A DNA stretch of 47,703 nucleotides, taken from positions 1 through 47,703 of the forward strand of contig CAJXBI010000008.1 in assembly GCA_913050005.1 (NCBI GenBank), in the 5' to 3' direction. This DNA comes from an uncultured Bacteroidota bacterium. GTDB taxonomy: Bacteria; Bacteroidota; Bacteroidia; NS11-12g; UBA9320. The position numbers and the translations under genes are program-made. Below are positions 17,071-33,512 of this stretch, piece by piece. Numbering within the stretch: the stretch's first letter is position 1; each line of letters begins with the position of its first letter. Below the pieces are notes generated by a model that worked only from the letters and a program-made list of their open reading frames with translations, ran no database searches and had not been told where the DNA came from.

Positions 17071-17976
17071 TCAAACCGTCACCTCTTCTAAAATACTTAG
17101 ATAATTCACATATCGGGTCACCGCAATTTCTTGAGTTTCTAATGCTTTAATAATTTGACAATCCGGTTCTTCTGTATGCAAACAATTGCTATACTTACAT
17201 TTAGATAAACGACTTCTCATCTCTGGAAAGTAATGACTCACTTGATTGGGTTCGGTTTGGACCATCCCAAAATCCTTAATACCGGGGGTATCTATAATCT
17301 TACATCCTTGTTTACCTATAAACATTTGAGCAAATGTAGTAGTATGTTTACCCTTGTGATATGACGATGAAATTTCACTTACTTTTTGATTGCTATTGGG
17401 CAGTAGGGCGTTAATCAATGTAGACTTACCCACCCCTGAATTCCCGGCCAACAAGACACACTGATTGCCAACAAGTTGACTTATAAATTCCACGTCTTCT
17501 GTATCCAAAAAGCTAACATTATATATTTCGTATCCTACATTCGGATAGAGTTCCATCAAATGATATCGATGATGTGACGCCTTCTTTGAATCCAAATCCT
17601 TTTTATTAAGTAATAGGGTTACAGGGATATGATAGGCTTCTGAAGTAGCCAAAAAACGATCGATAAACCCCTGAGGTGTGTGAGGTTTGGCAGGTGATGC
17701 AATTAAAAAAGCTCGATCGATATTCGCTGCAATAATTTGAAACTGCTTGCTTAGTTTGTTTGATTTTCTGACAATACAATTTTGCCTTTCTTCAATCGCT
17801 TTGATGAGGAATTGTTCTCCATCGTTATCTAAATTAACAATATCGCCAACTACTACCGGATTAGTACTTTTTAATTTGAGTGTTCTAATCTTACCTCTAA
17901 GACGAGCATCGTATTCCTTTCCATCAATTAAAACTTTATACCAACTTCCAGTAGATTTTGTGACAATACCTCGCAT
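17071..17976 (-). CDS. rsgA: Small ribosomal subunit biogenesis GTPase RsgA
   Basis: 301 aa. This circularly permuted GTPase releases maturation factors from the 30S subunit. Motifs appear in permuted order: NKKD (G4), then GNSGVGKST (P-loop), then DTPGIKDF (G3). An OB-fold precedes them (about 1-70). The C-terminal zinc-binding region is CKYSNCLHTEEPDC. It is the last gene of the operon that starts with the S41 protease, with a 6-base gap after metF. Confidence 0.96.
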   Translation of the reverse strand: MRGIVTKSTGSWYKVLIDGKEYDARLRGKIRTLKLKSTNPVVVGDIVNLDNDGEQFLIKAIEERQNCIVRKSNKLSKQFQIIAANIDRAFLIASPAKPHTPQGFIDRFLATSEAYHIPVTLLLNKKDLDSKKASHHRYHLMELYPNVGYEIYNVSFLDTEDVEFISQLVGNQCVLLAGNSGVGKSTLINALLPNSNQKVSEISSSYHKGKHTTTFAQMFIGKQGCKIIDTPGIKDFGMVQTEPNQVSHYFPEMRSRLSKCKYSNCLHTEEPDCQIIKALETQEIAVTRYVNYLSILEEVTV

Positions 17977-17982
17977 GTGTAT

Positions 17983-18933
17983 TTAAAATAACTCAGAAGC
18001 AACTGATTTGGTACTCGATGAAAAACTCATCGTATAAAAATGCAATGCAGGGACATTATTAGCCTTTAATTCTTTACACTGTTGAATACACCACTCGATA
18101 CCGATTTGACGAATAGCGTCATCGTCTTTGGCTTTATCGAGTTCAGTTGCAAAAGGTTCTGGAATATCAATGTTAAATATCTTCGGCAAATTTCTAAGGT
18201 GTGCTTTTTTAGTTATCGGTTTAATACCTGGGATAATAGGCACATTGATTTCTGCTTCCCGACAATTTTTCACATAGTCGAAATATTTTTGGTTATCAAA
18301 AAACATCTGTGTCGTAATGAATTCAGCTCCTGCGTCTACTTTACGTTTTAAAAACTTTAAATCACTACTCATGTTTGGAGCATCAATATGTTTTTCTGGA
18401 TATCCCGCAGCTCCAATACAGAAATTGGTTTCATTGGTGTTTCTTAGTTCTTGATCTTGGTATATCCCGTTGTTTAAATCGTTAATTTGACGAATTAATC
18501 CCAAAGAGTTTTTATTTCCATTTTTCTCTGGCTTAAACATTCGTTCATCTTTCAAATTATCACCTCTGAGTGCAAGTACATTTTTAATACCTAAAAAATC
18601 TAAATCTATCAGTGCATTCTCAGTTTCATCTTTGGTAAAACCACCACAAATTAGGTGAGGTACGGCCTCAACATGATATTTATTCATTATCGCCGCACAA
18701 ATGGCAACTGTGCCTGGTCGTTTACGGATACTAACTTTGTCGTACCCACCCTCTTTTCTCGGTCGTTCTATAAATTCCTCGCGATGATAAGTAACATCCA
18801 CAAATGCAGGTTTGAATTCCATCAATGGATCAATAGCTAAATATAATGATTCGATACTCTTTCCTTTGAGTGGTGGTAGTACCTCAAAAGAGAATAATGT
18901 TCTATCGGGCTTTAAATATTCTGTTAATTTCAT
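17983..18933 (-). CDS. metF: Methylenetetrahydrofolate reductase
   Basis: 316 aa, the bacterial MetF length. This FAD enzyme reduces 5,10-methylene-THF to 5-methyl-THF for methionine synthesis. The N-terminal FSFEVLPP stands for the usual FSFEFFPP with its catalytic Glu. DVTYHREEF, ALRGDN and FITTQMFFDNQKYFDYV are family blocks. It lies 3 bases after the M28 peptidase and 6 before rsgA, so it is cotranscribed with unrelated functions. Confidence 0.95.
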   Translation of the reverse strand: MKLTEYLKPDRTLFSFEVLPPLKGKSIESLYLAIDPLMEFKPAFVDVTYHREEFIERPRKEGGYDKVSIRKRPGTVAICAAIMNKYHVEAVPHLICGGFTKDETENALIDLDFLGIKNVLALRGDNLKDERMFKPEKNGNKNSLGLIRQINDLNNGIYQDQELRNTNETNFCIGAAGYPEKHIDAPNMSSDLKFLKRKVDAGAEFITTQMFFDNQKYFDYVKNCREAEINVPIIPGIKPITKKAHLRNLPKIFNIDIPEPFATELDKAKDDDAIRQIGIEWCIQQCKELKANNVPALHFYTMSFSSSTKSVASELF

Positions 18934-18936
18934 GAT

Positions 18937-20625
18937 TTAAAAAGTCACGTTTAATACTTTAACTTCTTTGTTTCTTCTAATAGTAACCATTGTCTGGTCA
19001 TTTTTGTTGTAAGATGACAACGCTTTCATGTAATCTTGAATATTTGCAATCGTAAAGTCTCCCATCCCAATAATAATATCTCCTTTTAGCATCCCTGCTT
19101 TAGAACCTGGTCTTTCAGGTTTAACGCCATCCACACGCATCCCCTCTCCATCAAATATGTAGTCAGGCATGATTCCTAAAGTTACTTTAAAATTCATCCG
19201 AGAAGGTTCATCTTTTGTGGTTTCAGTAAAAGAAAATTCTCCATATTCGTTTGCTTTCTGAAGTATTTTGAGCATGTATGAAATCACAAATGCTTCTCCG
19301 CCATAATTAATGATAGAAGGATCGTCCGATGGTTTGTGATAATGCTGATGTTGTCCTGTAAAAAAATGTACTGCCGGAATATTTACCAAATAAAACGAAG
19401 TATGATCTGAAGCTCCTATTCCGCTTTCTGTTGTTTTGATTTTAGCAATTTTACGTGTAGGATACGATACCTCACTAATTGCTTTGTTCCATTCTGGAGA
19501 AGAACCCACGCCATTTATAATCAATGTTTTTTTAGTAGAATCCAAATGACCAATCATATCCATATTAATCATAAAATTCACGTTTTGCTTTTGCATCAAA
19601 GCGCTTTTCACAAAGTATTTTGAACCAATAAGTCCTTGTTCTTCACCAGAAAATGCAATAAAAAGATAATTATTATTCTTATATTTTTTTGGTTTTTTAA
19701 CAATTGCCTGAGCAATCTCAAATAAACCCGCGACCCCACTCGCATTATCGTCTGCTCCATTATGAATGTCGCCGGGTATTTCTGCTAAAGATCCTCCTTT
19801 TTGTCCACGACCCAAATGATCATGGTGAGCTCCAACTACTACCGTTTGATCTGCTTGATTATCAATAAAACCTAATATGTTATTCGCTATTTTGGTAATC
19901 ATTAATATATCGAGATTAAACCGAATAGGAGTTACATCCAAGTTATTCAAATCTTTTTTTACAAAAAAGATTGGAATCCCAGTATTATCGTGGGTTTTAG
20001 CTAATGTACCACTCGGCTGTAATTCCTCATTATCTGTGTAATAAACAACTGCTTTAGCTCCTTTTGATTTAGCATAAGTTGCTCTGTACTCAATCCCTGA
20101 CCATGAGATGTATCGATTGTGCGGGTGAACTCCACCAGGGATATCCATCTTAATCAATACTACCTTGCCAGACACCTCTTTATCTTGATAGTCGTGATGC
20201 TTTAACCCTTCATCTTCAATGCCATAATTAACATTGACAGCTTCTCCTTTATAAGATCCATTGTTGGATGAAGCACTTAGCGGATAAAACTCTTTGAATA
20301 ACTTCAAAACATACTTATCCAACACCAAACTCGTATTTGATTTAGCCAACCTCAAATCTGGGGTAGACATATACTGATAATAGGAATCATTCTCTCCAGC
20401 AGGTTCAAGTCCTATACGCTCGTATTGTTTAGCGATGTATTCTGCTGATTTTTTATCGTTATCTGATGCACTAAGTCTTCCACCCAACTCATCACTAGCC
20501 AAGTAAGTAATGTGTTTTGTTATACGTTTAGAACGCTTCTTTTCTCCAAAATGAGGCTTTTGTGCCCAGACATTTAAAGAAATAACACAAGCCAATAGTG
20601 ACAATAAAATTAATCTAATATTCAT
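18937..20625 (-). CDS. Secreted M28-family zinc aminopeptidase with PA and PDZ domains
   Basis: 562 aa. The signal peptide ends about NVWAQ (residue 22). A PA-like insert lies about 130-255. The M28 metal site is recognisable as VGAHHDHLGRG, HNGADDNASGVAG, FSGEEQGLIGSKYF, NMDMIGH and GQHQHYHKPSDD. A PDZ domain (about 480-562) follows, with KAGMLKGDIIIGMG. The family cleaves N-terminal residues from peptides; it probably acts in the periplasm. Its ATG starts 1 base after the TauE/SafE stop. Confidence 0.92.
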   Translation of the reverse strand: MNIRLILLSLLACVISLNVWAQKPHFGEKKRSKRITKHITYLASDELGGRLSASDNDKKSAEYIAKQYERIGLEPAGENDSYYQYMSTPDLRLAKSNTSLVLDKYVLKLFKEFYPLSASSNNGSYKGEAVNVNYGIEDEGLKHHDYQDKEVSGKVVLIKMDIPGGVHPHNRYISWSGIEYRATYAKSKGAKAVVYYTDNEELQPSGTLAKTHDNTGIPIFFVKKDLNNLDVTPIRFNLDILMITKIANNILGFIDNQADQTVVVGAHHDHLGRGQKGGSLAEIPGDIHNGADDNASGVAGLFEIAQAIVKKPKKYKNNNYLFIAFSGEEQGLIGSKYFVKSALMQKQNVNFMINMDMIGHLDSTKKTLIINGVGSSPEWNKAISEVSYPTRKIAKIKTTESGIGASDHTSFYLVNIPAVHFFTGQHQHYHKPSDDPSIINYGGEAFVISYMLKILQKANEYGEFSFTETTKDEPSRMNFKVTLGIMPDYIFDGEGMRVDGVKPERPGSKAGMLKGDIIIGMGDFTIANIQDYMKALSSYNKNDQTMVTIRRNKEVKVLNVTF

Positions 20626-20626
20626 A

Positions 20627-21439
20627 TTACGAAATAATGTTTCCTGTGGTTTTAATAATTACAACAACGATAAGGATTGCAAATATAATTTTAAGTCGTT
20701 TTCTCGAGGATTTTTGTCCTATTGAAACACCCAGAGGTGCAGCAAAAAGTAATCCTCCAACTAACGGTAAAAAGAGGATTGGGAGAAGATATCCAAAATG
20801 ACTTCCTTCATAGCTGATCAGATCATAAGAACCATAAAGTAAAATCATAGGAATCATCATAACGGGGATAACTCCAATCGAAATCGAAGCCGATTTTTTG
20901 ATACCCATTTTTAAGAATTGGGTAAAAAGGGGAATCATGATTACTCCGCCACCCAAACCAGACAACCCGGAAATAACTCCAGTTAGCAATCCAGTTAAAG
21001 CAAACTTAGACAAAGGAGGATTTGTCTCATCTGATACCGAAGTATTGCTTTTGTATAAAAACTTCACTAGCATTAATACCAATAAAAAGATAAAAAAGAT
21101 ACTGAAAGATGCTTTGTCATACCAAGATCCATTAGCAATAAGATAGGACAATAAAATACTGCTTGGTACAGCAGTCATGCATGTAAATAAAATTTCTTTT
21201 GGGAAAAATGCATTGAGTTTATATTGTTTATATGAACTTATTGCTCCGGCAAAAAAAGTTGCTGCAAAAGAATTTGCCAAGATATATTTTGATAGCTCTG
21301 GATCTTCATAACCAAGATAAATAAGTGCCGAACTCAATACAGGTACAAATACGATTCCACCACCAACACCCAATAAACCACTAATAAAGCCACCAATTAC
21401 ACCAAAAAATACGAGAATAAGAATTAATGAAATTTCCAC
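20627..21439 (-). CDS. TauE/SafE family sulfite/sulfonate exporter-like protein
   Basis: 270 aa with seven to eight predicted membrane helices. The two internally repeated glycine-rich motifs of the family are present: GVIGGFISGLLGVGGGIVFVP near the start and LLTGVISGLSGLGGGVIMIP near residue 150. The family exports sulfite, sulfoacetate or related anions, but the substrate here is unknown. The start is GTG, 5 bases after the S41 protease stop. It is not next to the persulfide dioxygenase gene. Confidence 0.9.
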   Translation of the reverse strand: MEISLILILVFFGVIGGFISGLLGVGGGIVFVPVLSSALIYLGYEDPELSKYILANSFAATFFAGAISSYKQYKLNAFFPKEILFTCMTAVPSSILLSYLIANGSWYDKASFSIFFIFLLVLMLVKFLYKSNTSVSDETNPPLSKFALTGLLTGVISGLSGLGGGVIMIPLFTQFLKMGIKKSASISIGVIPVMMIPMILLYGSYDLISYEGSHFGYLLPILFLPLVGGLLFAAPLGVSIGQKSSRKRLKIIFAILIVVVIIKTTGNIIS

Positions 21440-21444
21440 TTTAT

Positions 21445-23067
21445 TTAGGGTGTTAAGTATTGATTATATCCTGTCGAATCTGTGAGGATTTCTTTGCATG
21501 AAGCCCAATCCATATCGTCATCAAATTGTACTTCAATATCTCCTCGTTGATAGTAATAACGACGAACAATTTCTTGCTCTAAAAGCTCTTTCAATTCTGA
21601 TTTGTGATTTTCAGTATCTTTATTTTTAATGTTCTGCATTGTTAATTTTAGATTAGTGAATTCAGAAGACAACATGTCGTAATATTTATCCTCTTTTGCC
21701 TGAGATTCTAAGCGATTAATATTTTTTTCAGTTCGAGTTACATAGTCGTAGTCTTTGTCTTGAATAAACAGACAAAAATCATTATACAAGCTATCCGACA
21801 CCTCAAATTTAAATGGCGAAACAATACTGTCATGCTTGCTTCTAAAGCGAGTAGCATAATTAAATAGAATATGATTTTGGATAAGACTTAATGACAATTC
21901 GGAGAGTTTCGAGGGTTTAATCGCTGCATCTGGATGTATTCCTTCTCCGTCAATTACTATTCTACCATTTCTGGTTTTAAAAATACGTTTTGAACTATCT
22001 GCTACGGCTAATGCCTTTCCCTCTACTTTGTTGCTGTAATCCAATCGTTGAATCAAACGACCACTAGGTATATAATATTTTGAAGTAGTAATTTTCATCG
22101 AGGTGTTGTATGACAAGCCTTTGGTCATTTGCACCAACCCTTTACCGAATGAATTTTGACCAACTAAAACTGCCCGATCTAAATCTTGAAGAGCACCCGC
22201 AACAATCTCACTGGCTGATGCAGAATTTCCGTTGATTAAAACAACCATGGGAGTTTCTGTATCTACTGATGAGTTCATAGTCTTGAACGAACGATTATCT
22301 TCCGGATATTTTCCCCTTGTTTCGACAATTAGTTCTCCTCTTGGTATGAATACATTTACAATATTAATAGCTTCGTTGAGAAGCCCACCACCATTATTTC
22401 TGAGATCTAGAACCATTTTTTGGACACCTTGATTTTTAAATTTCAATACTGCATCTCTAACCTCTTTTCCGGCGTTGGGGGTAAAACTAACTAGCTTAAT
22501 ATACCCAATATCATCTATAACTCCTGAATAGGCTACATTTTTCAGTGTAATATTTTCTCGAGTAATTTCTTTTTTTATCCTTCCTACTGAGAACCGATTA
22601 ACTTCCACCAAAACCGATGTCCCCGATTGTCCTGTTAATAAATCACGAATTACTGATTTTGATTTATCTTTAACTGGTATTCCATCAATCGTAATAATTT
22701 CATCACCCGCCCGCAGACCTGCTTTCTGACATGGCCTATCTTCTAAAGGTGAATCAATAAAAATTCGGCCATTAATTCTTCGAGTTGAAGCACCAATACC
22801 CGAATAAGTTCCTGAAACTTGAAATCTGTAATCCTCTGCTTGTGCCTCGCTATAAAAATTAGTATACGGATCCAGTGACTTTAACATTCCATCAATGGCT
22901 GCTCTAATCAGCTTTCCTGGCTTTATCTCATCTACATAAGTTGTATTAACTTCTTTGTAAACATCAGCGAAAATGGATATGTTTTTAGATATCTCAAAGT
23001 AATCACTTGCTTTAAATGCTAACAAGAAAAAAGCACAAATTACTGGGATGAGAATGTATTTTTTCAA
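21445..23067 (-). CDS. S41-family C-terminal processing protease
   Basis: 540 aa. A membrane or signal segment occupies about 4-20. A PDZ domain follows (about 85-165; GDEIITIDGIPV). The S41 domain carries the Ser in NSASASE and the Lys in SFGKGLVQ, which form the Ser/Lys dyad of Ctp proteases. The last about 150 residues are a charged helical extension. It should degrade or process periplasmic proteins. It heads a five-gene operon and has a TATCTTTG element 20 bases before its ATG. Confidence 0.94.
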   Translation of the reverse strand: MKKYILIPVICAFFLLAFKASDYFEISKNISIFADVYKEVNTTYVDEIKPGKLIRAAIDGMLKSLDPYTNFYSEAQAEDYRFQVSGTYSGIGASTRRINGRIFIDSPLEDRPCQKAGLRAGDEIITIDGIPVKDKSKSVIRDLLTGQSGTSVLVEVNRFSVGRIKKEITRENITLKNVAYSGVIDDIGYIKLVSFTPNAGKEVRDAVLKFKNQGVQKMVLDLRNNGGGLLNEAINIVNVFIPRGELIVETRGKYPEDNRSFKTMNSSVDTETPMVVLINGNSASASEIVAGALQDLDRAVLVGQNSFGKGLVQMTKGLSYNTSMKITTSKYYIPSGRLIQRLDYSNKVEGKALAVADSSKRIFKTRNGRIVIDGEGIHPDAAIKPSKLSELSLSLIQNHILFNYATRFRSKHDSIVSPFKFEVSDSLYNDFCLFIQDKDYDYVTRTEKNINRLESQAKEDKYYDMLSSEFTNLKLTMQNIKNKDTENHKSELKELLEQEIVRRYYYQRGDIEVQFDDDMDWASCKEILTDSTGYNQYLTP

Positions 23068-23086
23068 AATAAAATTTTCGTTCTAA

Positions 23087-23094
23087 CAAAGATA
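23087..23094 (-). promoter_or_regulatory. -7 promoter element for the S41-TauE-M28-metF-rsgA operon
   Basis: The minus strand reads TATCTTTG, an exact TAnnTTTG match 20 bases before the S41 ATG. No well-placed -33 TTG is evident. Confidence 0.45.
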
Positions 23095-23162
23095 ACTAAA
23101 CAGTTGAGTTCGAGGAATAAGTCCTTAATCAAAATCCAATACGTTGAGTTTATCCGTATCAA

Positions 23163-23405
23163 CTAGGGTACTGGATCGTAACCACTTTTTTTACTCCATG
23201 GATGGCAGCTTAGTATCCTTCTTAAAGCCAGATAAAAGCCATAAAATGGACCATGTTTTTTGATTGCCTCTACTGCATATGCACTACAAGTTGGCGAATA
23301 ACAACATGTTGCCGGTAAAAAAGGAGATATTATTTTCTGATAAATCCAAATAGGAAGTAACAAGACAAATGAAAGTACTTTACTTAATTCTTTTAATAAA
23401 TTCAT
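23163..23405 (-). CDS. yidD: Membrane protein insertion efficiency factor YidD
   Basis: 80 aa from the ATG at 23405; a TTG one codon earlier is not needed. YidD is a small membrane-associated protein that aids YidC/Sec insertion. Diagnostic blocks are [34 protein letters not shown] and [17 protein letters not shown]; each is seen complete. It overlaps the end of rnpA by 26 bases, the classic rpmH-rnpA-yidD arrangement. yidC does not follow. Confidence 0.95.
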
Positions 23406-23766
23406 CAATTGACAAAGTTAATTTTTTTTCAAGTAAGTGATGATCGGGCAATTCCTTGCCTAGATAAATAACACCAATGGCATATTGGTCATCATTTTTT
23501 ATAGACTGATAAATACGTTGTTTTTGTAATCTATAGATGTTTGTAATTTGACGTTTAATTCGATTACGATCTACGGCTTTTTTAAACTTTCGTTTACCCA
23601 CGGATACAAAAAACTGGCACGAGTATGGAGTCTTTAATTCTTTTTTTAAGTAAACAAATAAAAGCGGAGGGTTGAAAATCGACGAACCTTTTTTATTAAA
23701 AATAGAATCAATCGTATCCTTGTGCGAAAGCTTTTCTTCTTTATGAAATGTATTGGATATCCCCAT
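23380..23766 (-). CDS. rnpA: Ribonuclease P protein component
   Basis: 128 aa. The basic protein subunit of RNase P matures the 5' ends of tRNAs. The family signature is present as [14 protein letters not shown] (about 70-83), preceded by [10 protein letters not shown]. The N-terminal [16 protein letters not shown] corresponds to the usual LxxxxDFxxvfxxG stretch. It begins 23 bases after rpmH. Confidence 0.94.
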
Positions 23767-23789
23767 TTTATTGATTTGGGGGAGAAATA

Positions 23790-23951
23790 TTAATGCTTAT
23801 GACGAGGTTCGTCAGAAACACTTAGCTTCTTACGTCCTTTTTTACGACGAGCAGCTAAAACTTTTCTGCCATTTTTAGTAGCCATTCGTTCTCTGAAACC
23901 GTGTTTGTTTCTTCTTTTTCGTCTGCTTGGTTGAAATGTCCGCTTACTCAT
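23790..23951 (-). CDS. rpmH: 50S ribosomal protein L34
   Basis: 53 aa: starts [19 protein letters not shown], continues [20 protein letters not shown], and ends HKH. This is the full L34 pattern with a short acidic/basic C-terminal extension common in Bacteroidota. It is the first gene of the rpmH-rnpA-yidD transcript. A TACCTTTG element (24004-24011) lies about 50 bases upstream. Confidence 0.97.
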
Positions 23952-24003
23952 TTTGTATTGTAATAATGACTTGTCGTCTGTTTATTCTTATTTAAAAGGC
24001 TTG

Positions 24004-24011
24004 CAAAGGTA
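24004..24011 (-). promoter_or_regulatory. -7 promoter element for rpmH
   Basis: The minus strand reads TACCTTTG, a perfect TAnnTTTG element 52 bases upstream of the rpmH ATG. Confidence 0.5.
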
Positions 24012-24088
24012 GTGTTTTTTCAAATAATTCGTAACACTTATGTTACTTTTTTAGTGGATTCAACCTATTTCAGTTTAAAAGCACCCTT

Positions 24089-25384
24089 TTAGCTGGCCAT
24101 AAAATCCTCAATATCTGAAATTTCAATGGGCATTTCTACCTCATCCATCATATCTACAGGACCATTTTCGGTAATCAGTATTTGATTCTCAATTCTAACC
24201 CCTATCCCTTCATCTTGGATATAGATCCCAGGCTCACAACTAAAGGTCATTCCTAATTGCATAGGTTCATATCGCATCCCGCTATCATGCACATCTATTC
24301 CTAAGAAGTGAGAAGTACCGTGCATGAAATATTTTTTCAATGCTGGCCATGAAGGATCTTGATTTTTTATATCTTCATTAGTTAGCAGACCTAGTCCTAT
24401 TAATTCATCTTCCATCAAACCTTCAACCTCTTTCTGATAGTCCATAAGCAGAGTTCCAGGCACCAATTTCTCTCGAGCTTGTTTCATCACTCGAAGGGTT
24501 GCATTATAGACATCTGCTTGTCTTGGCGAAAATTTACCATTAGCTGGCAAACAGCGGGTCATATCACTGGCATAATTTGCGTAATCTACACCACAATCTA
24601 TGAGTACCAAATCCCCATCTTTAACTTGCTTATTATTTTCAATATAGTGCAATGTGCAAGCGGATTCACCACTTGCTACAATAGGTTCAAACGAAAATCC
24701 ATTGGCTCTATTTCGAGTAAACTCGTGTATCAATTCAGCCTCAATCTCGTGTTCCCAGACACCCGGCTTGGTAAATTTTATAACACGCTCCAATCCTAAC
24801 TTTGAAATTCGAACTGATTCTCGCATAACCTCTAGTTCAAAAGCTGTTTTTACACTACGTAATCGCTGTAAAATTGTTCCCGCTCGTTTATAGGAATGCA
24901 ATGGATATAATTGTTGCAATTCTTTTGCGAAATCAAGGACTTTACTTGGACTCTTTGGCGAAAACCGATCATTCTCATTCAATGGCAGATAAATGTTATC
25001 TGCCATATTAATAATTGGCCTCAATTGCTGCATGTAGTTACCATTCCAATAAATTGAATTTATTCCGCTTGTTGCTGAAGCATCCCTCTTTGTATATTTA
25101 TAACCATCCCAAATTGCAATTTTTTCATTGGTCTCTACCAAAAAAAGACACGCTCTATACTCGGGGATTGGACAGTCTGGATATAACACCAAAATACTAT
25201 CTTCTTGATCTATTCCACACAACCAAAAAATATCTGAGTTTTGCTTGAATTTATAAGTCATATCACCATTCCAACTGTATTGATAATTGCTATGGAAAAT
25301 GGCAATACTATTGGGTTCCATTTGAGAAATAAATCGGTTTCGGTTTTCGACAAACAGTTGCGAGTTGAGTGATTTGTACTTCAT
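24089..25384 (-). CDS. pepP: Xaa-Pro aminopeptidase (M24B)
   Basis: 431 aa. It removes N-terminal residues preceding proline. An N-terminal creatinase/AMP_N domain spans about 1-150. The M24 pita-bread domain carries the five metal ligands in VLIDCGVDYANYASDMTR (two Asp), MHGTSHFLGIDVHD (His), SCEPGIYI (Glu) and VRIENQ (Glu). It is cytosolic, with no signal peptide. The gene stands alone and has a TAATTTTG element 10 bases before the ATG, implying a very short leader. Confidence 0.95.
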   Translation of the reverse strand: MKYKSLNSQLFVENRNRFISQMEPNSIAIFHSNYQYSWNGDMTYKFKQNSDIFWLCGIDQEDSILVLYPDCPIPEYRACLFLVETNEKIAIWDGYKYTKRDASATSGINSIYWNGNYMQQLRPIINMADNIYLPLNENDRFSPKSPSKVLDFAKELQQLYPLHSYKRAGTILQRLRSVKTAFELEVMRESVRISKLGLERVIKFTKPGVWEHEIEAELIHEFTRNRANGFSFEPIVASGESACTLHYIENNKQVKDGDLVLIDCGVDYANYASDMTRCLPANGKFSPRQADVYNATLRVMKQAREKLVPGTLLMDYQKEVEGLMEDELIGLGLLTNEDIKNQDPSWPALKKYFMHGTSHFLGIDVHDSGMRYEPMQLGMTFSCEPGIYIQDEGIGVRIENQILITENGPVDMMDEVEMPIEISDIEDFMAS

Positions 25385-25393
25385 GATATGGTT

Positions 25394-25402
25394 GCAAAAT
25401 TA
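25394..25402 (-). promoter_or_regulatory. -7 promoter element for pepP
   Basis: The minus strand reads TAATTTTGC, an exact TAnnTTTG match. It is only about 10 bases from the start codon, so the transcript would be nearly leaderless. Confidence 0.45.
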
Positions 25403-25455
25403 CGTATTTGCGGTAATAAGCAGGTCATCCTCACTCCAATCTATTCTTTATCACC

Positions 25456-25484
25456 TTGTATTGAACTTCAAATTAATAAATTTG
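25456..25484 (+). promoter_or_regulatory. Promoter of the aldehyde dehydrogenase gene
   Basis: TTG at 25456-25458, then 18 bases, then TAAATTTG at 25477-25484. Both elements fit the Bacteroidota housekeeping promoter; the ATG is 16 bases downstream. Confidence 0.6.
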
Positions 25485-25500
25485 TGCATAATCATTCATT

Positions 25501-27042
25501 ATGTTAAAATCAACTAGAGAACTACTTAAAAGTCTAAACGTCAACCCAGAAAATGGGAGTATTTGCACCGGGATCCAATGGGTTACATCTACCAATACCG
25601 AAACTATAAACGTACACTCTCCTGTGGACGGATCAGAACTGGGAAAGGTCATTTATGCCAGTGAAAGCGATTACGAAACCGTAATTTTAAAAGCACAAAA
25701 AGCGGCAGAATATTGGAAAACAGTGCCTGCCCCTGAACGAGGATCTATTGTAAGGCAATATGGTATAAAACTACGAGCTCATAAGAAAGAGTTGGGAAAA
25801 CTAGTGAGTCTGGAAATGGGTAAGAGTTATCAAGAAGGTCTTGGCGAGGTTCAAGAGATGATTGATATCTGTGACTTTGCAGTTGGGTTATCACGGCAAT
25901 TATATGGACTTACAATGCACAGCGAACGTCCAAATCATCGGATGTATGAACAATGGCATCCCATTGGTATTGTTGGCATTATCTCCGCATTTAATTTCCC
26001 GGTAGCTGTATGGGCCTGGAATAGTATGATTGCCACTGTTTGTGGGGATGTTTGTGTATGGAAACCCAGCGAAAAAACACCATTAACCGCGATAGCCTGT
26101 CATCGACTTTTAGAAAGTGTAATTACGGAAAATAAATTGCCCGAGGGTATTTTTAACTTGGTTATTGGAAATTATAAAATTGGAGAAAGTTTAGCAAAAG
26201 ATAAACGAATTCCGATGGTTAGTGCCACTGGAAGTACACGGATGGGTAAAAAAGTAAGCGAGGTAGTCGGTGCTCGTTTAGGGAGTTCTCTCTTGGAGCT
26301 TGGAGGTAATAATGCAGTTATAATATCCGAACATGCCAACCTAGACAATGCACTTATAGCTGCAGTTTTTGGTTGTGTAGGAACGGCCGGACAACGATGT
26401 ACAAGTACACGAAGACTTCTTATTCACGAATCTATTTTTGAAACATTCAAAACCAAATTAGTCAATGCTTATGGACAACTAAGCATTGGTAATCCGTTGG
26501 ATGAAAATAATCACGTCGGACCATTGATTGATGAAGATGCTGTGAATGCGTTCATTAACGCTGTTGAAGCTGTAAAAAACGAGGGTGGAGAGGTATTGAT
26601 AGGTGGCGAGGTTTTGTCGGGAGAGGGATATGAAAGTGGATGTTATGTAAAACCTTGCATTGCGACAGCTAAAAATCACTTTAATATTGTTCAAGAAGAA
26701 ACATTCGGACCAATTGTTTATTTAATTCCATATCAAACGCTTGATGAAGCCATTCAACTTCAAAATGACGTAAAACAAGGATTAAGCTCAGCCATATTTA
26801 CCGATAATATTCAAGAAGCTGAACGATTTTTGAGTGCTGCAGGGAGTGATTGTGGTATTGCTAATGTCAATATTGGTACAAGTGGAGCGGAAATAGGTGG
26901 TGCATTTGGAGGAGAAAAAGAAACTGGCGGTGGAAGAGAAAGTGGTTCTGATGCATGGAAAAAATATATGCGACGCCAAACTAACACTATCAATTACGGG
27001 ATTGATTTACCGCTTGCACAAGGTATAAAATTTGACTTATAA
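25501..27042 (+). CDS. Aldehyde dehydrogenase, ALDH7 (alpha-aminoadipic semialdehyde dehydrogenase-like)
   Basis: 513 aa. The NAD-dependent ALDH core has the general-base Glu in LLELGGNNA (about 266) and the nucleophilic Cys in GTAGQRCTSTRR (about 300). ELGGNNA and the C-terminal GAFGGEKETGGGRESGSDAWK are typical of the ALDH7/antiquitin branch, which oxidises aminoadipic semialdehyde in lysine catabolism. The exact substrate here is inferred from that resemblance. Its TAA shares one base with the ATG of the next gene. Confidence 0.9.
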   Translation: MLKSTRELLKSLNVNPENGSICTGIQWVTSTNTETINVHSPVDGSELGKVIYASESDYETVILKAQKAAEYWKTVPAPERGSIVRQYGIKLRAHKKELGKLVSLEMGKSYQEGLGEVQEMIDICDFAVGLSRQLYGLTMHSERPNHRMYEQWHPIGIVGIISAFNFPVAVWAWNSMIATVCGDVCVWKPSEKTPLTAIACHRLLESVITENKLPEGIFNLVIGNYKIGESLAKDKRIPMVSATGSTRMGKKVSEVVGARLGSSLLELGGNNAVIISEHANLDNALIAAVFGCVGTAGQRCTSTRRLLIHESIFETFKTKLVNAYGQLSIGNPLDENNHVGPLIDEDAVNAFINAVEAVKNEGGEVLIGGEVLSGEGYESGCYVKPCIATAKNHFNIVQEETFGPIVYLIPYQTLDEAIQLQNDVKQGLSSAIFTDNIQEAERFLSAAGSDCGIANVNIGTSGAEIGGAFGGEKETGGGRESGSDAWKKYMRRQTNTINYGIDLPLAQGIKFDL

Positions 27043-27665
27043 TGATTAAAAATATCCTTTTCAAAGCCCTTGTTTTTGTACTTTTATTCAGCATTAATAA
27101 TTTACATGCACAGGACTTTGGTGCACAACTATTTTTGGGAGCAAATTTTAGTCAAGTAGATGGGGACCAATTTGGAGGATATAATAAACTTGGAGCAAAT
27201 GCTGGCATTCAAATCAATAGACCAATAAATTCGGAGTGGGAATCTGCATTCGAAATTAAATACAGTATGAAAGGGTCAAAAAAAGTGATTGACCCTGAGG
27301 GACCTCCAACACCTACTCTCGACTTAAACTACCATTACATTGAGATTCCTCTCATCGTAAAATACCTCGGTTTTGGGAAAGTAGAACCTTATGGAGGGCT
27401 TTCTATTGGAGTAAATATTTTTAATGAACGAAATGATAATGGATTTAAAACAGAAGAACCCGAGCTCAGGAAAACAGAGATTGGTTTTCATTTGGGAGGA
27501 TCCTATGCGTTAAACGACAGGGCAAGTGTTGACCTTCGCCACTCCTATTCACTATTTTCTATTCGAGATTATCCCGTAATAGGTAACCCTCCGTCGTTAT
27601 GGGGTAGAGTTGGGTGGTTTAACCGACTATTTACAATAGGAATATCCTACAACCTAAAAGATTAA
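27042..27665 (+). CDS. Porin-family outer-membrane beta-barrel protein
   Basis: 207 aa. A signal peptide (1-23, ending LHAQ) is followed by alternating hydrophobic strands with Gly and aromatic residues: FGAQLFLGANFSQVDGD, NAGIQINRPI, VEPYGGLSIGVNIF and a final LFTIGISYNL. This matches the eight-stranded PorT/OmpW-like barrel family common in Bacteroidota. Function is unknown. It starts at the overlapping TAATG of the ALDH gene, so it is translationally coupled to an unrelated enzyme. Confidence 0.85.
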   Translation: MIKNILFKALVFVLLFSINNLHAQDFGAQLFLGANFSQVDGDQFGGYNKLGANAGIQINRPINSEWESAFEIKYSMKGSKKVIDPEGPPTPTLDLNYHYIEIPLIVKYLGFGKVEPYGGLSIGVNIFNERNDNGFKTEEPELRKTEIGFHLGGSYALNDRASVDLRHSYSLFSIRDYPVIGNPPSLWGRVGWFNRLFTIGISYNLKD

Positions 27666-27667
27666 AT

Positions 27668-28501
27668 CTAAAGAAGTGAATCCTCACGCTTAATATGAAG
27701 ATCACGTTGAGGGAACGGTATTGTGACATTATTTGCTCGGAACGATTCCTCTATTTGATATCTTAAATCACTCATAATGTGGTCTATAGGAAATAATTGA
27801 TTGCTCCAAAATACCAATTCAAAATCGAGACTTGAATCTCCAAAATCTTTAAAAAATACAATAGGTGCAGGATTGGTTATCACCTTTGAATGTTTCCAAG
27901 CACACTCTTCCAAGATTTTTTTGACCAATTCTACATTGCTCCCATAAGCAACACCAACATTAATCTTGAATCGTGTAATCGTATCGCTAGTACTCCAATT
28001 AATTAATTTTTCACTTACCAATTGGTGATTGGGTATAATCATTGAAATACCATCTCGCGTAGTGACTTTAGATGTTCTTAATCCGATTAGCGTTACTCTA
28101 GCTACAACACCATCAACTTCTACAATATCATTAACACGTATGGTAGGCTCAACTAATAAAATAAAACCCGAAACAAGGTCATTAGCGACTTGCTGCAAAC
28201 CTAGACCAACACCAAGAAGAAGCGGTGTTAATGCTAAGAAACCTGTCCAATTAACATGAAAAGCCACCAATGCAATGATTATGAAAACAAGTGTTAATAC
28301 ATATTTTGTAATTCGAATAATGGCAAACTCTCTGCCACTATCCAATCTTCCTGATTTAACAGCAGACTTTGCTAATTTTTTAATCCACTTGTAAGTAAAC
28401 CAAATGATAAACCACGAAATTAAAATATATAAAAGGCTTGTTAAAGTAACCGATCCTTGATCTCCAATCTTAAATAATTCTGTTTTAAGAAATTCTTTCA
28501 T
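27668..28501 (-). CDS. Small-conductance mechanosensitive channel (MscS family)
   Basis: 277 aa. Three membrane helices lie about 21-41, 63-83 and 87-110. The pore-lining TM3 runs into GLGLQQVANDLVSGFILLVEP, the conserved MscS gate region. The beta domain (VGDIVEV-like VNDIVEVDGVVARV, then STKVTTRDG-like TSKVTTRDGISMIIPNH) and an alpha/beta C-terminal domain follow. It opens on membrane tension and releases solutes after hypo-osmotic shock. It is convergent with the porin gene with 2 bases between stops. Confidence 0.94.
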   Translation of the reverse strand: MKEFLKTELFKIGDQGSVTLTSLLYILISWFIIWFTYKWIKKLAKSAVKSGRLDSGREFAIIRITKYVLTLVFIIIALVAFHVNWTGFLALTPLLLGVGLGLQQVANDLVSGFILLVEPTIRVNDIVEVDGVVARVTLIGLRTSKVTTRDGISMIIPNHQLVSEKLINWSTSDTITRFKINVGVAYGSNVELVKKILEECAWKHSKVITNPAPIVFFKDFGDSSLDFELVFWSNQLFPIDHIMSDLRYQIEESFRANNVTIPFPQRDLHIKREDSLL

Positions 28502-28897
28502 TATTTACTTCATGTAAGTTTTGTTAAAGACAAGTGCAAAGTAATCATCTCCAAGTTCTAATTATACATATTTATAGCAAAAATGATTGATTTTTCTGCT
28601 TTTATTATATAAGTATTAGTAAAATATTCAAAACTAAAACCTGATTTAATAAACTGTTTTATTGAAACTTTAACTAAATTTTCCAAAGGACATTATTCTG
28701 CTAAAATTGACCTACTCTTTTTTTTAATCTGATAACCTTTTCTAATATAATTATTCGAGCTTCCATACTAAAAATTATTATATTTATAGCGACGTTGTTT
28801 GTCAAAAACTTTTTGCTTGCAAGACCTATCAATGGCTTCTTACAATTTAAGCAATCTCTATATCGCTCGAAGTAAAGATATTAAAAAGACCCAGCTC
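28502..28897. other. 396-base intergenic stretch, no gene recognised
   Basis: Very AT-rich with stops in all frames and no RNA gene that I recognise. Its right end holds the 3' part of the terminator of the radical SAM gene. Its left end should contain the mscS promoter, though only an imperfect TACTTTG is seen near 28540. Confidence 0.5.
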
Positions 28898-28917
28898 TTA
28901 AAATAAATTGAGTTGGG
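28880..28917 (-). terminator. Probable terminator overlapping the stop codon of the radical SAM gene
   Basis: On the minus strand CCCAACTC (28917-28910) can pair with GAGCTGGG (28897-28890), one mismatch in 8, around a 12-base loop. TCTTTTT follows. The 5' arm lies in the last codons of the gene. Confidence 0.55.
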
Positions 28918-29983
28918 GAGTTTGTTTAATCCCTAGTTTTTTAGGAGCAACAAGACACTTTTTTCGATTTAGATTGTATTTATTTTTTGCAAGTCTAACT
29001 TGTTGATGAATATTTTCTGCAATTGCTCCATCGTTTTTTCTTCGATTCAACACTTCAGTATCCCCAGAATTTCCACCTTGAGTATCAGTAATCTGATGCA
29101 AGACTCGAGAAGCCTTAAGTGGATATGTTTTGTGTAGCCAATTTTCAAATAACAATGTAGTCGTAGTGTTTAATCTTAATATAGTATGGCTTAAGAAGGA
29201 TGCACCTGCATAGCTAACAGCCTTACAAATCGAATAAATTTCGTCCTCATTTAGACCAGGTATAATAGGTGCTAACAACACCCCAACAGGAATTTGGTGC
29301 TCGGATAATGTTTGAATCACTTTAAGCTTGTTTTTCGAACTAGATGTTCGAGGCTCAAGTACTCTTCTTAAATCTTCATCAAGGGTAGTAATAGATATAC
29401 AAACTTCCACCAAACCTTTGGCAGCCATCTTTTTCAGGAGATCAATATCGCGACATACCAATGCATTCTTAGTAATAATTACAACAGGTTGATTATATTT
29501 TAAACATACTCCCAAAAGCTGACGCATTATTTTTAATTTCTGTTCAGCAGGTTGATAGCAATCCGTATTACCACTAATTGAAATCCTATCCCCTTTCCAA
29601 GACTTGCTTTTTAATTTTTGCTCCAATAAAGAAACAGCGTTGGATTTGTAAAGAATCTTTTTTTCAAAATCAAGACCTGAATTATATCCCCAATACTCAT
29701 GGGTTACTATTGCATAGCAATAAATGTACCCATGCTCACAACTTTCATATGGATTCATACTCCACTCTTGTTTCATATCTGGACTACTCACCTTGTTGAG
29801 AATGGTTTTAGCTTCAGTAGGTATCCATTTTGTAGAATTATCTTTAGCAAAAAATTCTTCATCAAAATAAGAGCCATCCCAATAGTCCTCCCGTTGATAT
29901 TTCGACAAACTATTATTTATGAACGTTAGAGCACCACGACCTTTGAGATTTGTAGTATTGACAATATTTTTATCTAAAACCAT
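28898..29983 (-). CDS. PA0069/SplB-like radical SAM protein with an altered cluster motif
   Basis: 361 aa from the ATG at 29983; a TTG 11 codons upstream (30016) would only add a hydrophobic, unconserved tail. The region MNPYESCEHGYIYCYA corresponds to the family motif NPYxGCEHGCxYCYAR. The middle cysteine of CxxxCxxC is a tyrosine (TAC codon; Cys82-Tyr86-Cys89), and the usual Arg after CYA is Ile. The rest looks sound: HEYWGYNSGLDFE, SGNTDCYQPAE, ITKNALVCRDIDLL and SITTLDEDLRRVLEPR. With only two canonical ligands it may not assemble a normal [4Fe-4S] cluster, so it may be an inactive or repurposed family member. Confidence 0.85.
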   Translation of the reverse strand: MVLDKNIVNTTNLKGRGALTFINNSLSKYQREDYWDGSYFDEEFFAKDNSTKWIPTEAKTILNKVSSPDMKQEWSMNPYESCEHGYIYCYAIVTHEYWGYNSGLDFEKKILYKSNAVSLLEQKLKSKSWKGDRISISGNTDCYQPAEQKLKIMRQLLGVCLKYNQPVVIITKNALVCRDIDLLKKMAAKGLVEVCISITTLDEDLRRVLEPRTSSSKNKLKVIQTLSEHQIPVGVLLAPIIPGLNEDEIYSICKAVSYAGASFLSHTILRLNTTTTLLFENWLHKTYPLKASRVLHQITDTQGGNSGDTEVLNRRKNDGAIAENIHQQVRLAKNKYNLNRKKCLVAPKKLGIKQTPQLNLF

Positions 29984-30030
29984 GATTATAATATACACAA
30001 TATGTACACAATCCAAAAAGGAATACGGAT

Positions 30031-30660
30031 TTATTTTCCTCTTAATTCAGTCCAGAACTCCTTAAACCCTGCTTTTGACGAAATCATTTTCTTAAATTCA
30101 TCCCAAAGGGTAGGGTTTTGATTATTGGATGGTAACGATGGAGACATTGTTGAGTTTGCCTCATCATCTCTAGAATCGATGGTTTCTATACCCAACAATT
30201 CGTCACTAGATTTAAATTGAGCTCTAGCCCTAGCTGTATGACCTAGTTTTTGTTCTGCCAAACCAAGATTATTCATGATAATGGCGTCTGTAGGATCCAG
30301 TGATAGCGATTTAGTGTAATCTTCCACACTACCCTCCGTATCTCCTGTTTTATCTTTAATATATGCTCTGCAGCTGTAGAAATAAGCATTTTCGGGATCT
30401 AGCTTAACTGCCTGATCAAAATCTTGTATCGCGTGCTTAAATCTTAAATTGAATTTACAGACACCGCGTTCATTAAAATATTCAGCATTAGTTGGGTCTT
30501 TGATTATGAGGTGATTCCAGCACTCCATTGCATTTTCCCAACGTTTCGTTTTTTGATACGAAAATGCCAAAATGGATAGGTAATCCTCATTAGGACTTCC
30601 CTCTAGACTATTGATTATGGCTTCATAATCTCCTTGCTCGTATAATTGCTCGATATTCAA
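30031..30660 (-). CDS. Tetratricopeptide repeat protein
   Basis: 209 aa starting at TTG (30660); no in-frame ATG precedes the first repeat. About four TPR units span 5-155: an initial YEQGDYEAIINSLEG, then KRWENAMECWNHLIIKDPTNAEYFNERG, FKHAIQDFDQAVKLDPENAYFYSC and GSVEDYTKSLSLDPTDAIIMNNLG, each with the usual spaced Ala/Gly/Pro pattern. The C-terminal about 40 residues are polar and lack repeats. No signal peptide is present. It is a protein-interaction scaffold with an unknown partner, 47 bases upstream of the radical SAM gene on the same strand. Confidence 0.88.
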   Translation of the reverse strand: MNIEQLYEQGDYEAIINSLEGSPNEDYLSILAFSYQKTKRWENAMECWNHLIIKDPTNAEYFNERGVCKFNLRFKHAIQDFDQAVKLDPENAYFYSCRAYIKDKTGDTEGSVEDYTKSLSLDPTDAIIMNNLGLAEQKLGHTARARAQFKSSDELLGIETIDSRDDEANSTMSPSLPSNNQNPTLWDEFKKMISSKAGFKEFWTELRGK

Positions 30661-30757
30661 TTATATATTCCAACGCACAATTTGCCATTTTGATTTCATT
30701 TATTCGGGAAAATTTGGAATTAGTTCAGTTAGATATTGTAATATATTCGCAACCGAA

Positions 30758-31531
30758 ATGAATCAAATTAATCAAGCCGCTCAATTACTTTGGGATTCAA
30801 GTAATCATAAAAAAACTATTCCGCCAGTACGATCAATCATTACTGCAACCGATATTGATGCTGCATATGCCGTACAAAAAATCAATATTCAAAAGCGAAT
30901 CGATAACGGAGAAAGTGTCATTGGCAAAAAGATTGGACTTACCTCCTTTGCTGTTCAAGAACAACTGGGTGTAGACCAACCAGATTACGGTATCTTATTC
31001 GATTCTATGCAAGTCAAAAACGCAGGACAACTCCCATTCAATGATTTGATGCAACCTAAAGCAGAAGCAGAAATTGCTTTCAAGATTGGAAAAGATTTAA
31101 ATGGTGACGTTGATATTTCTGACCTAATTGATGCTATTGAATACGCTACTGCATCGATCGAAATTGTTGGTAGCCGAGTTGAAAATTGGGACATTCGTAT
31201 TACTGATACTATTGCAGACAATGCAAGTGCAAGTCATTTTGTACTGGGTGATAATCACATCAATATTAACCAACTAGATTTACCCAATTGCTTCATGAGT
31301 ATGACGAAGAATGGGAAAATTGCCTCGGAAGGAATGGGTAGTGCGTGCATGGACAACCCCCTAAATGCCGCTTTATGGCTTGCTCAAGTGATGGCCAAAA
31401 ATGGGACCCCATTGCAAGCAGGCGATATTCTCCTTTCTGGTGCATTAGGGCCTATGGTTCCTATCAAAAAAGGAGACAACTTTGAGGCCACTATCCAAGG
31501 ACTCGGTAGTGTGACTATTCAAATAAATTAA
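30758..31531 (+). CDS. 2-oxopent-4-enoate hydratase / 4-oxalocrotonate decarboxylase family enzyme
   Basis: 257 aa of the MhpD/DmpE/DmpH group in the FAH superfamily. [36 protein letters not shown] (metal-binding Glu pair) and [20 protein letters not shown] are diagnostic. Members either hydrate 2-hydroxypenta-2,4-dienoate to 4-hydroxy-2-oxovalerate or decarboxylate 4-oxalocrotonate; the two are hard to tell apart. The two next genes fit hydratase activity. It is first in a three-gene operon, 2 bases before the dehydrogenase gene. Confidence 0.88.
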
Positions 31532-31533
31532 CG

Positions 31534-32481
31534 ATGAAAAGAAAAGCAGCCATTATTGGAAGCGGAAATATCGGTACAGATTTGATGATAAAAATCATTA
31601 GAAATTCTTCTGTACTCAAAGTAGGTTGTTTGGTAGGTATAGATCCTAATTCTGATGGACTTGCCAGAGCCAAACGCATGGGTGTTGAGATCTGTAGTGA
31701 GGGAATCGATGGACTTATTCAAATGGATATTTGGAAAGAAATTACCGTTATTTTTGATGCAACTTCTGCAAAGGCTCATCTATATAACCTTGAAAAAATT
31801 AAGCCTTTTTCTGACAAAAAAATTGTTGATCTTACTCCTGCTGCAGTTGGGCCATACATGATTCCTGCAGTTAATTTTGATGCTGAATTATGTAATAAAC
31901 TTGGTTTGGTTAAGGCTGTTGACTCCGAATCTGTATTGAATATGGTCACTTGCGGAGGACAAGCTACCATTCCCATTGTAGCTGCGGTGAATAGAATTGC
32001 TCATGTACACTATGGCGAAATTGTTGCTAGTATTGCCAGTAAATCTGCAGGACCAGGCACACGTGCAAATATTGATGAGTTTACAGAAACCACTTCTGAG
32101 GCTATCCAAAAAATTGGAGGAGCAGATCAAGGGAAAGCCATTATCATACTAAATCCTGCTGAGCCTTCATTGGTTATGAGAGATACTGTATTTACCCTCA
32201 GCGAAACTGCAGACCGCGAAACTATTCGTGAGAGTATTCATGCCATGGTAGCAGAAGTTCAAAAGTATGTGCCAGGATATACCCTTCATCAAGAAGTACA
32301 ATTTGACGATATCCCCGCAGATAAACCTGTATTTATAGAGGGATTAGGACACAAACACGGGTTAAAGACTACAGTTTTACTGCAAGTAATCGGTGCCGGA
32401 CATTACCTCCCCGAATATGCTGGAAACCTAGATATTATGACAAGTGCAGCACTTGCTGTTGGTGAAAAAATGATTGGATAA
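31534..32481 (+). CDS. mhpF: Acetaldehyde dehydrogenase (acetylating)
   Basis: 315 aa, the DmpF/MhpF length. It converts acetaldehyde, CoA and NAD to acetyl-CoA. The NAD-binding motif [13 protein letters not shown] is at 8-20 and the catalytic cysteine is in [12 protein letters not shown] (about 131). FDATSAKAH and [10 protein letters not shown] are family blocks. In known systems it forms a heterotetramer with the aldolase encoded 2 bases downstream, and acetaldehyde is channelled between them. That pairing is strongly suggested by the gene order. Confidence 0.95.
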
Positions 32482-32483
32482 TA

Positions 32484-33512
32484 ATGAGCAAAAAGAAACT
32501 TTATATACAAGACGTAACGCTCCGAGATGGCATGCATGCCATTGGGCACCAATACGACAAACACAAACTCAAATCCATTGCCGTTGGGTTAGATCAAGCG
32601 GGAGTAGATGCGATAGAAATTGCTCACGGAGATGGGTTAAGTGGCGGAAGTTTTAATTATGGATTTGGAGCTCACACCGACTGGGATTGGCTAGAAGGTA
32701 TTGCCGAAGAACTCAATCATGCAATACTAACTACTTTGCTTTTGCCTGGAATAGGTACCATCGAAGATCTGAAAAAAGCACAAGCTTTAGGAGTACGATC
32801 GGTACGCATAGCAACCCATAGTACCGAAGCTGATGTGAGCAAACAACACATCGAAGCTGCCAAAAAATTAGGTATGGATGTTGGAGGTTTTTTGATGATG
32901 GCTCATATGAATGAACCAAAAAAACTAGCCGAACAAGCCCAGCTAATGGAAAGCTACGGTGCCGATTGTGTATACGTTACGGATAGTGCCGGTGCACTGA
33001 TGATGGATGGAGTGGCAGATCGTATGAAAGCATTCAGAGATACCCTATCTGATAATACCGAAATTGGTATTCATTGTCATCATAATCTAAGTCTGGGAGT
33101 CGCAAATACAATTGTAGCTATGCAAAATGGAGCCAATCGATTGGATGCATCACTTGCAGGCATGGGTGCCGGAGCTGGCAATTGTCCTTTAGAGGTACTA
33201 ATTGCAGTACTGAATAGAATGGGTGAACATACCAACGCAGCAGTTAATCAATTGATGGATTTGGCAGATGATGTCATTCGACCTTTGCAAAAACGTCCTG
33301 TGCGGGTAGATCGTGAAACTCTAAGTTTGGGTTATGCTGGAGTGTATTCGAGCTTTTTATTGCATAGTGAGCGTGCAGCTAAAAAATACGGACTCAATAC
33401 TGCAGATATTCTTCAAGAGCTCGGTAAACGTAAAATGGTAGGCGGACAAGAAGATATGATCGTGGATGTGGCTTTGGACATGGTGAAGCAAAAAAGTTCT
33501 TCGTTGAAATGA
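32484..33512 (+). CDS. mhpE: 4-hydroxy-2-oxovalerate aldolase
   Basis: 342 aa, DmpG/MhpE type with an HMGL-like TIM barrel and a C-terminal DmpG communication domain. It cleaves 4-hydroxy-2-oxovalerate to pyruvate and acetaldehyde. The catalytic start is [14 protein letters not shown], followed by [11 protein letters not shown], the metal-binding HCHHN-like [13 protein letters not shown], and [12 protein letters not shown]. It is the last gene of the meta-cleavage operon and partner of the preceding dehydrogenase. Confidence 0.96.

Follow-up and report, generated by a model that had tools for sequence, protein, structure and literature searches.

We analysed a window of 47,703 nucleotides of DNA from an uncultured Bacteroidota bacterium. 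A gene on its minus strand (28898–29983) probably once encoded a normal radical SAM enzyme of the PA0069 family and has since entered early decay in one Bacteroidota lineage. The replacements in its active site are lone changes, the replacements as a whole are spread uniformly over conserved and variable sites, and a neighbouring gene is broken. Early decay is preferred because the sister species and the other relatives that were read keep the middle cluster cysteine (Cys86), and because the absence of constraint at conserved sites (4 of 18 replacements) coincides with a broken partner gene directly adjacent.

The open reading frame starts with ATG and runs for 361 codons to its stop, so that the preliminary description was right to call the frame intact; neither a frameshift nor a premature stop was found in it. 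Its protein scored 392.9 bits against the NF033668 (rSAM_PA0069) profile, above the curated cut-off of 360, with residues 14–347 matched to profile positions 1–332 of 348. The radical SAM domain PF04055 was also matched above its cut-off (46.9 bits versus 29.5). The Rv2578c family (NF038135) belongs to the same wider group, but the score was only 201 bits, well under the cut-off of 430. The full-length match above cut-off and the 93% amino acid identity to the intact sister copy are those of a PA0069-family member. However, the middle cluster cysteine is tyrosine, the arginine of the CYAR motif is isoleucine, and the glycine before the first cysteine is serine. Thus, the protein descends from the PA0069 family by its sequence, but to call it a functional radical SAM enzyme would be unwarranted.

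In the CX3CX2C motif of the window protein (C82-EHG-Y86-IY-C89; NPYESCEHGYIYCYAIVTHEYWG), two of the three cysteines of CEHGCxYC are left, giving CEHGYIYC; the corresponding motif of the sister species is NPYQGCEHGCIYCYARVTHEYWG. Codon 86 is TAC (29726–29728) in the window and TGC in the sister, and codon 92, encoding the invariant arginine after CYA, is ATA (Ile; 29708–29710) in the window and AGA in the sister. Both replacements had been reported exactly in the preliminary description, which did not contain the sister's TGC, the pseudogene downstream or three further changes. These are Q80E and G81S (codons GAA AGT, 29741–29746), which replace the conserved Gln-Gly directly before the first cluster cysteine, and T153M (ATG, 29525–29527), which replaces an invariant threonine. 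The downstream family motifs SGNTDCYQP and EPRT are retained. An alignment with intact homologues revealed no compensating cysteine or histidine near the cluster site.

Tyrosine can bind iron in principle, and two of the three cysteines are left. This might favour a working variant that holds its cluster on two cysteines and another ligand (Tyr86 or some other residue) with altered chemistry, an explanation that we regard as very improbable. R92, G81, Q80 and T153 were lost together with C86, no substitute cysteine or histidine lies near the site, and no clade carries the change. Moreover, viperin loses its cluster when any one cysteine is removed (PMC3283665). The change of the middle cysteine alone (C87A) abolished the Fe-S cluster of viperin and destabilised the protein (PMC3283665). 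Because C87A is the equivalent single change, a site-differentiated [4Fe-4S] cluster should not form with Tyr86. Viperin is a laboratory equivalent of middle-cysteine loss; however, its substrate and organism are unrelated, and the replacement is alanine instead of tyrosine.

All three cluster cysteines were kept in 80 of 80 relatives on GTDB contigs, which were retrieved by a scan that made no use of the cluster motif itself. The radical SAM gene was present in 18 of the 19 genus genomes, and every copy with the motif on its contig, except that of the window, had cysteine at position 86. Among 395 Bacteroidota genomes, the variant pattern matched one, the window itself. Viral contigs gave no match to the variant, and phage relatives were only distant matches at about 30% identity. 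The sister species (G008) is 93% identical in the protein and 96% identical in DNA over about 10 kb, and has TGC and AGA at codons 86 and 92. Since no relative carries Tyr86 and the sister has the ancestral codons, the replacement is a lone change and not the mark of a subfamily. The preliminary description had proposed that a tyrosine conserved across a clade would indicate a new subfamily and a lone change would indicate decay or error; no clade with tyrosine was found in the genus, the 80 closest GTDB contigs or the 395 phylum genomes. Loss of the motif throughout a clade, as expected of a selected pseudoenzyme subfamily, was thus not seen, the change being the only one in the 19 genus and 395 phylum genomes.

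We then counted replacements and synonymous changes on each branch by a three-species polarisation, in which only changes that could be assigned with two outgroups were included. The radical SAM gene had 18 replacements and 17 synonymous changes on the window branch versus 2 and 12 on the sister branch (Fisher's test, p = 0.024). Four of the 18 window replacements (G81S, C86Y, R92I and T153M) fell at positions where conservation outside the genus is 97% or more, while 4.5 would be expected by chance. On six intact branches only 2 of 90 replacements fell at such sites, and the difference was significant (p = 0.007), in a test that depends on four changes. Replacements in the window gene therefore no longer avoid conserved sites, as in a pseudogene.

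The neighbouring genes (17071–33512) also had a raised ratio of replacements to synonymous changes on the window branch (71:127 versus 23:99 on the sister branch, p = 0.0015), which is explained either by selection being weaker in this lineage or by some errors in the consensus. The ratio of the radical SAM gene was not higher than that of these neighbours (p = 0.46), and the gene-wide rate alone is not distinctive. At about 1:1, it is well under the neutral ratio of 2.8:1; therefore, selection acted during most of the branch or acts still. We infer that the ratio fits a gene that was selected for most of the branch and lost its selection late.

The frame open over 361 codons and the ratio below neutral speak against decay, and selection may still act. 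They would suit a cluster-less pseudoenzyme kept by selection in a non-catalytic role, for example the binding of its former substrate or a partner, and so would the predicted model, whose barrel core is confidently predicted (pLDDT above 80 in most blocks between residue 151 and about residue 300). In the model of the window protein, the motif loop (residues 83–106) falls below 50 pLDDT. Even so, we think that such a pseudoenzyme is unlikely: the change is common to no relative, the replacements do not spare conserved sites, and the conserved gene alongside is a pseudogene. In addition, when a frame of this length was simulated under neutrality, it remained open in 62% of runs after 10 substitutions and in 20% after 40; the open frame therefore says little for constraint. 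The earlier suggestion that selection may have kept the protein thus gained no positive support. Of the three possibilities raised in the preliminary description, the early pseudogene is supported by the lone change, the unconstrained conserved sites and the broken partner, whereas the pseudoenzyme and the three-ligand variant are disfavoured, as no clade shares the change.

The solved fold closest to the predicted model was that of spore photoproduct lyase (PDB 4fhc; E = 8.5e-6, TM 0.52). With only 13% identity to the window protein, the likeness is one of fold and not of function, and nothing that we found points to a DNA repair role for the PA0069 family. A search of the literature on PA0069 or Rv2578c function returned nothing useful.

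Directly downstream of the radical SAM gene, on the same strand, comparison with the sister's frame revealed a pseudogene (28511–28880) of a treble-clef/zinc-ribbon partner gene of about 120 amino acids, and only here were frameshifts and stops found. Its start codon has been lost (ATG to GAG at 28868–28866), single bases have been deleted next to 28805 and 28596, and stops occur at 28770–28768, 28695–28693 and 28564–28562 (codons 38, 63 and 107 of the sister's frame). The window side had 32 derived nonsynonymous codons, three of which are stops, and one synonymous; the sister side had 0 and 2. DNA divergence was 13.4%, roughly double the value for the radical SAM gene; the region as a whole is about 96% identical.

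The treble-clef gene was found in 18 of the 19 genus genomes. A treble-clef-like gene lies tens of bases downstream of the radical SAM gene, on the same strand, in G008, G007, G003, G010 and G012; the two are near each other in most genomes and about 3 kb apart in G004 and G013. Its product, of about 120 residues, has a treble-clef-like cysteine pattern and a weak match to DUF2116 (E = 0.008, under the cut-off), and no Pfam family scored above cut-off. Intact copies were recorded at L177–L180 and L182–L192. In three further species the treble-clef protein is 95–96% identical to that of the sister, while their radical SAM proteins are only about 69–84% identical to that of the window. G002 has a broken treble-clef gene as well but an intact radical SAM motif; therefore, the two genes do not always decay jointly.

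Both flanking genes have open frames and are 96–99% identical in protein. The upstream TPR-like gene (30031–30660, minus strand) is a conserved neighbour in close relatives, and the downstream gene (27668–28501, minus strand) is of the MscS channel type, as named from its sequence alone. The intact MscS-type neighbour shows that decay is confined to the unit between the flanking genes. No other sense-strand pseudogene was found in those parts of the window that could be compared. We took the other candidates for frames on the strand opposite intact genes, and the single one that we examined closely is antisense to an intact GcvH-like frame.

These neighbours also bear on a base-calling or assembly error, since the window belongs to a draft metagenome assembly. 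The changes are carried by one assembly only, and the raised replacements in the neighbouring genes could be an effect of errors. However, several changes, independent of one another, lie close together at the motif, the adjacent gene is coherently degraded over about 370 bases, and the flanking frames are open and highly identical. In addition, seven further radical SAM genes were found in this genome, all with intact cysteine motifs. An error is accordingly improbable in our judgement, and both it and the pseudoenzyme are less likely than early decay. In the same draft, which is 86% complete, we found no second paralogue able to replace the radical SAM gene and no intact second treble-clef copy.

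Under early decay, the following course of events may be proposed. The sister still has the ancestral protein, which would have bound a [4Fe-4S] cluster through C82, C86 and C89 with SAM on the free iron, and would have generated a 5'-deoxyadenosyl radical acting on a substrate. The radical SAM gene and the small treble-clef gene probably form one operon in most of the genus and presumably worked jointly, and this two-gene unit may have become dispensable in the window lineage. Dispensability is suggested because most of the genomes sampled across the wider order, among them several complete genomes from the same family, lack the radical SAM gene, and because other copies are broken (L109 and L093, below). 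The treble-clef gene would have been lost first, through its frameshifts, stops and missing start. The radical SAM gene would then have gained replacements regardless of conservation, among them C86Y, R92I, G81S and T153M; with these, the product should be unable to bind the cluster or to perform radical chemistry. The loss of the cluster is deduced here from sequence, and the product would no longer be a useful protein.

Other damaged copies of the family were observed. In G026 (L109:1480-2562; contig C67) the cysteine motif is intact and an in-frame TGA occurs shortly past SGNTDCYQP. In G010 (L093:1501-2583; contig C11) the three cysteines are kept and the motif surroundings are degraded (NPYHSCENGCVYCYARIAHKYLGD; Q80H, G81S, H84N, W98L and Y100D). 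Of its 34 replacements, 7 are at conserved sites, and its treble-clef neighbour is intact. A copy in a Maribacter MAG (L013:3001-3984) has a stop codon within the matched stretch; it may be broken too, or the assembly may be in error there.

Apart from the window protein, only one PA0069-family homologue that we saw has lost cluster cysteines. It is a distinct case, from a different family of the order (L169:1501-2562; G051:C75, also L117), and has no stop in about 354 codons. Its motif (NPYQGDASACIYSYTRNS) carries C82D, E83A, H84S, G85A and C89S, so that two cluster cysteines are gone, and SGNTDCYQP has become MADSAYYQA. Its relatives in the genus (48–65% identity) are intact. Conserved sites received 27 of its 72 replacements versus 18 expected (one-sided p = 0.014), and the difference from intact branches was also significant (p = 2e-9). 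A frame of this length remained without a stop in only 2.5% of neutral runs. This protein makes a stronger candidate than that of the window for a pseudoenzyme kept by selection, though it comes from one genome only. That the two proteins together represent a repeated loss of radical chemistry in the PA0069 family, with a non-catalytic role kept, seems to us a doubtful proposition.

The window gene would be an instance of loss of function recorded while the reading frame is still whole. Automatic annotation would still name it a radical SAM enzyme, as it passes the NCBIfam cut-off. The conserved pair of a PA0069-family radical SAM protein and a small treble-clef protein may be a functional unit in the genus, and this pair of neighbours is a lead to the function of the PA0069 family.
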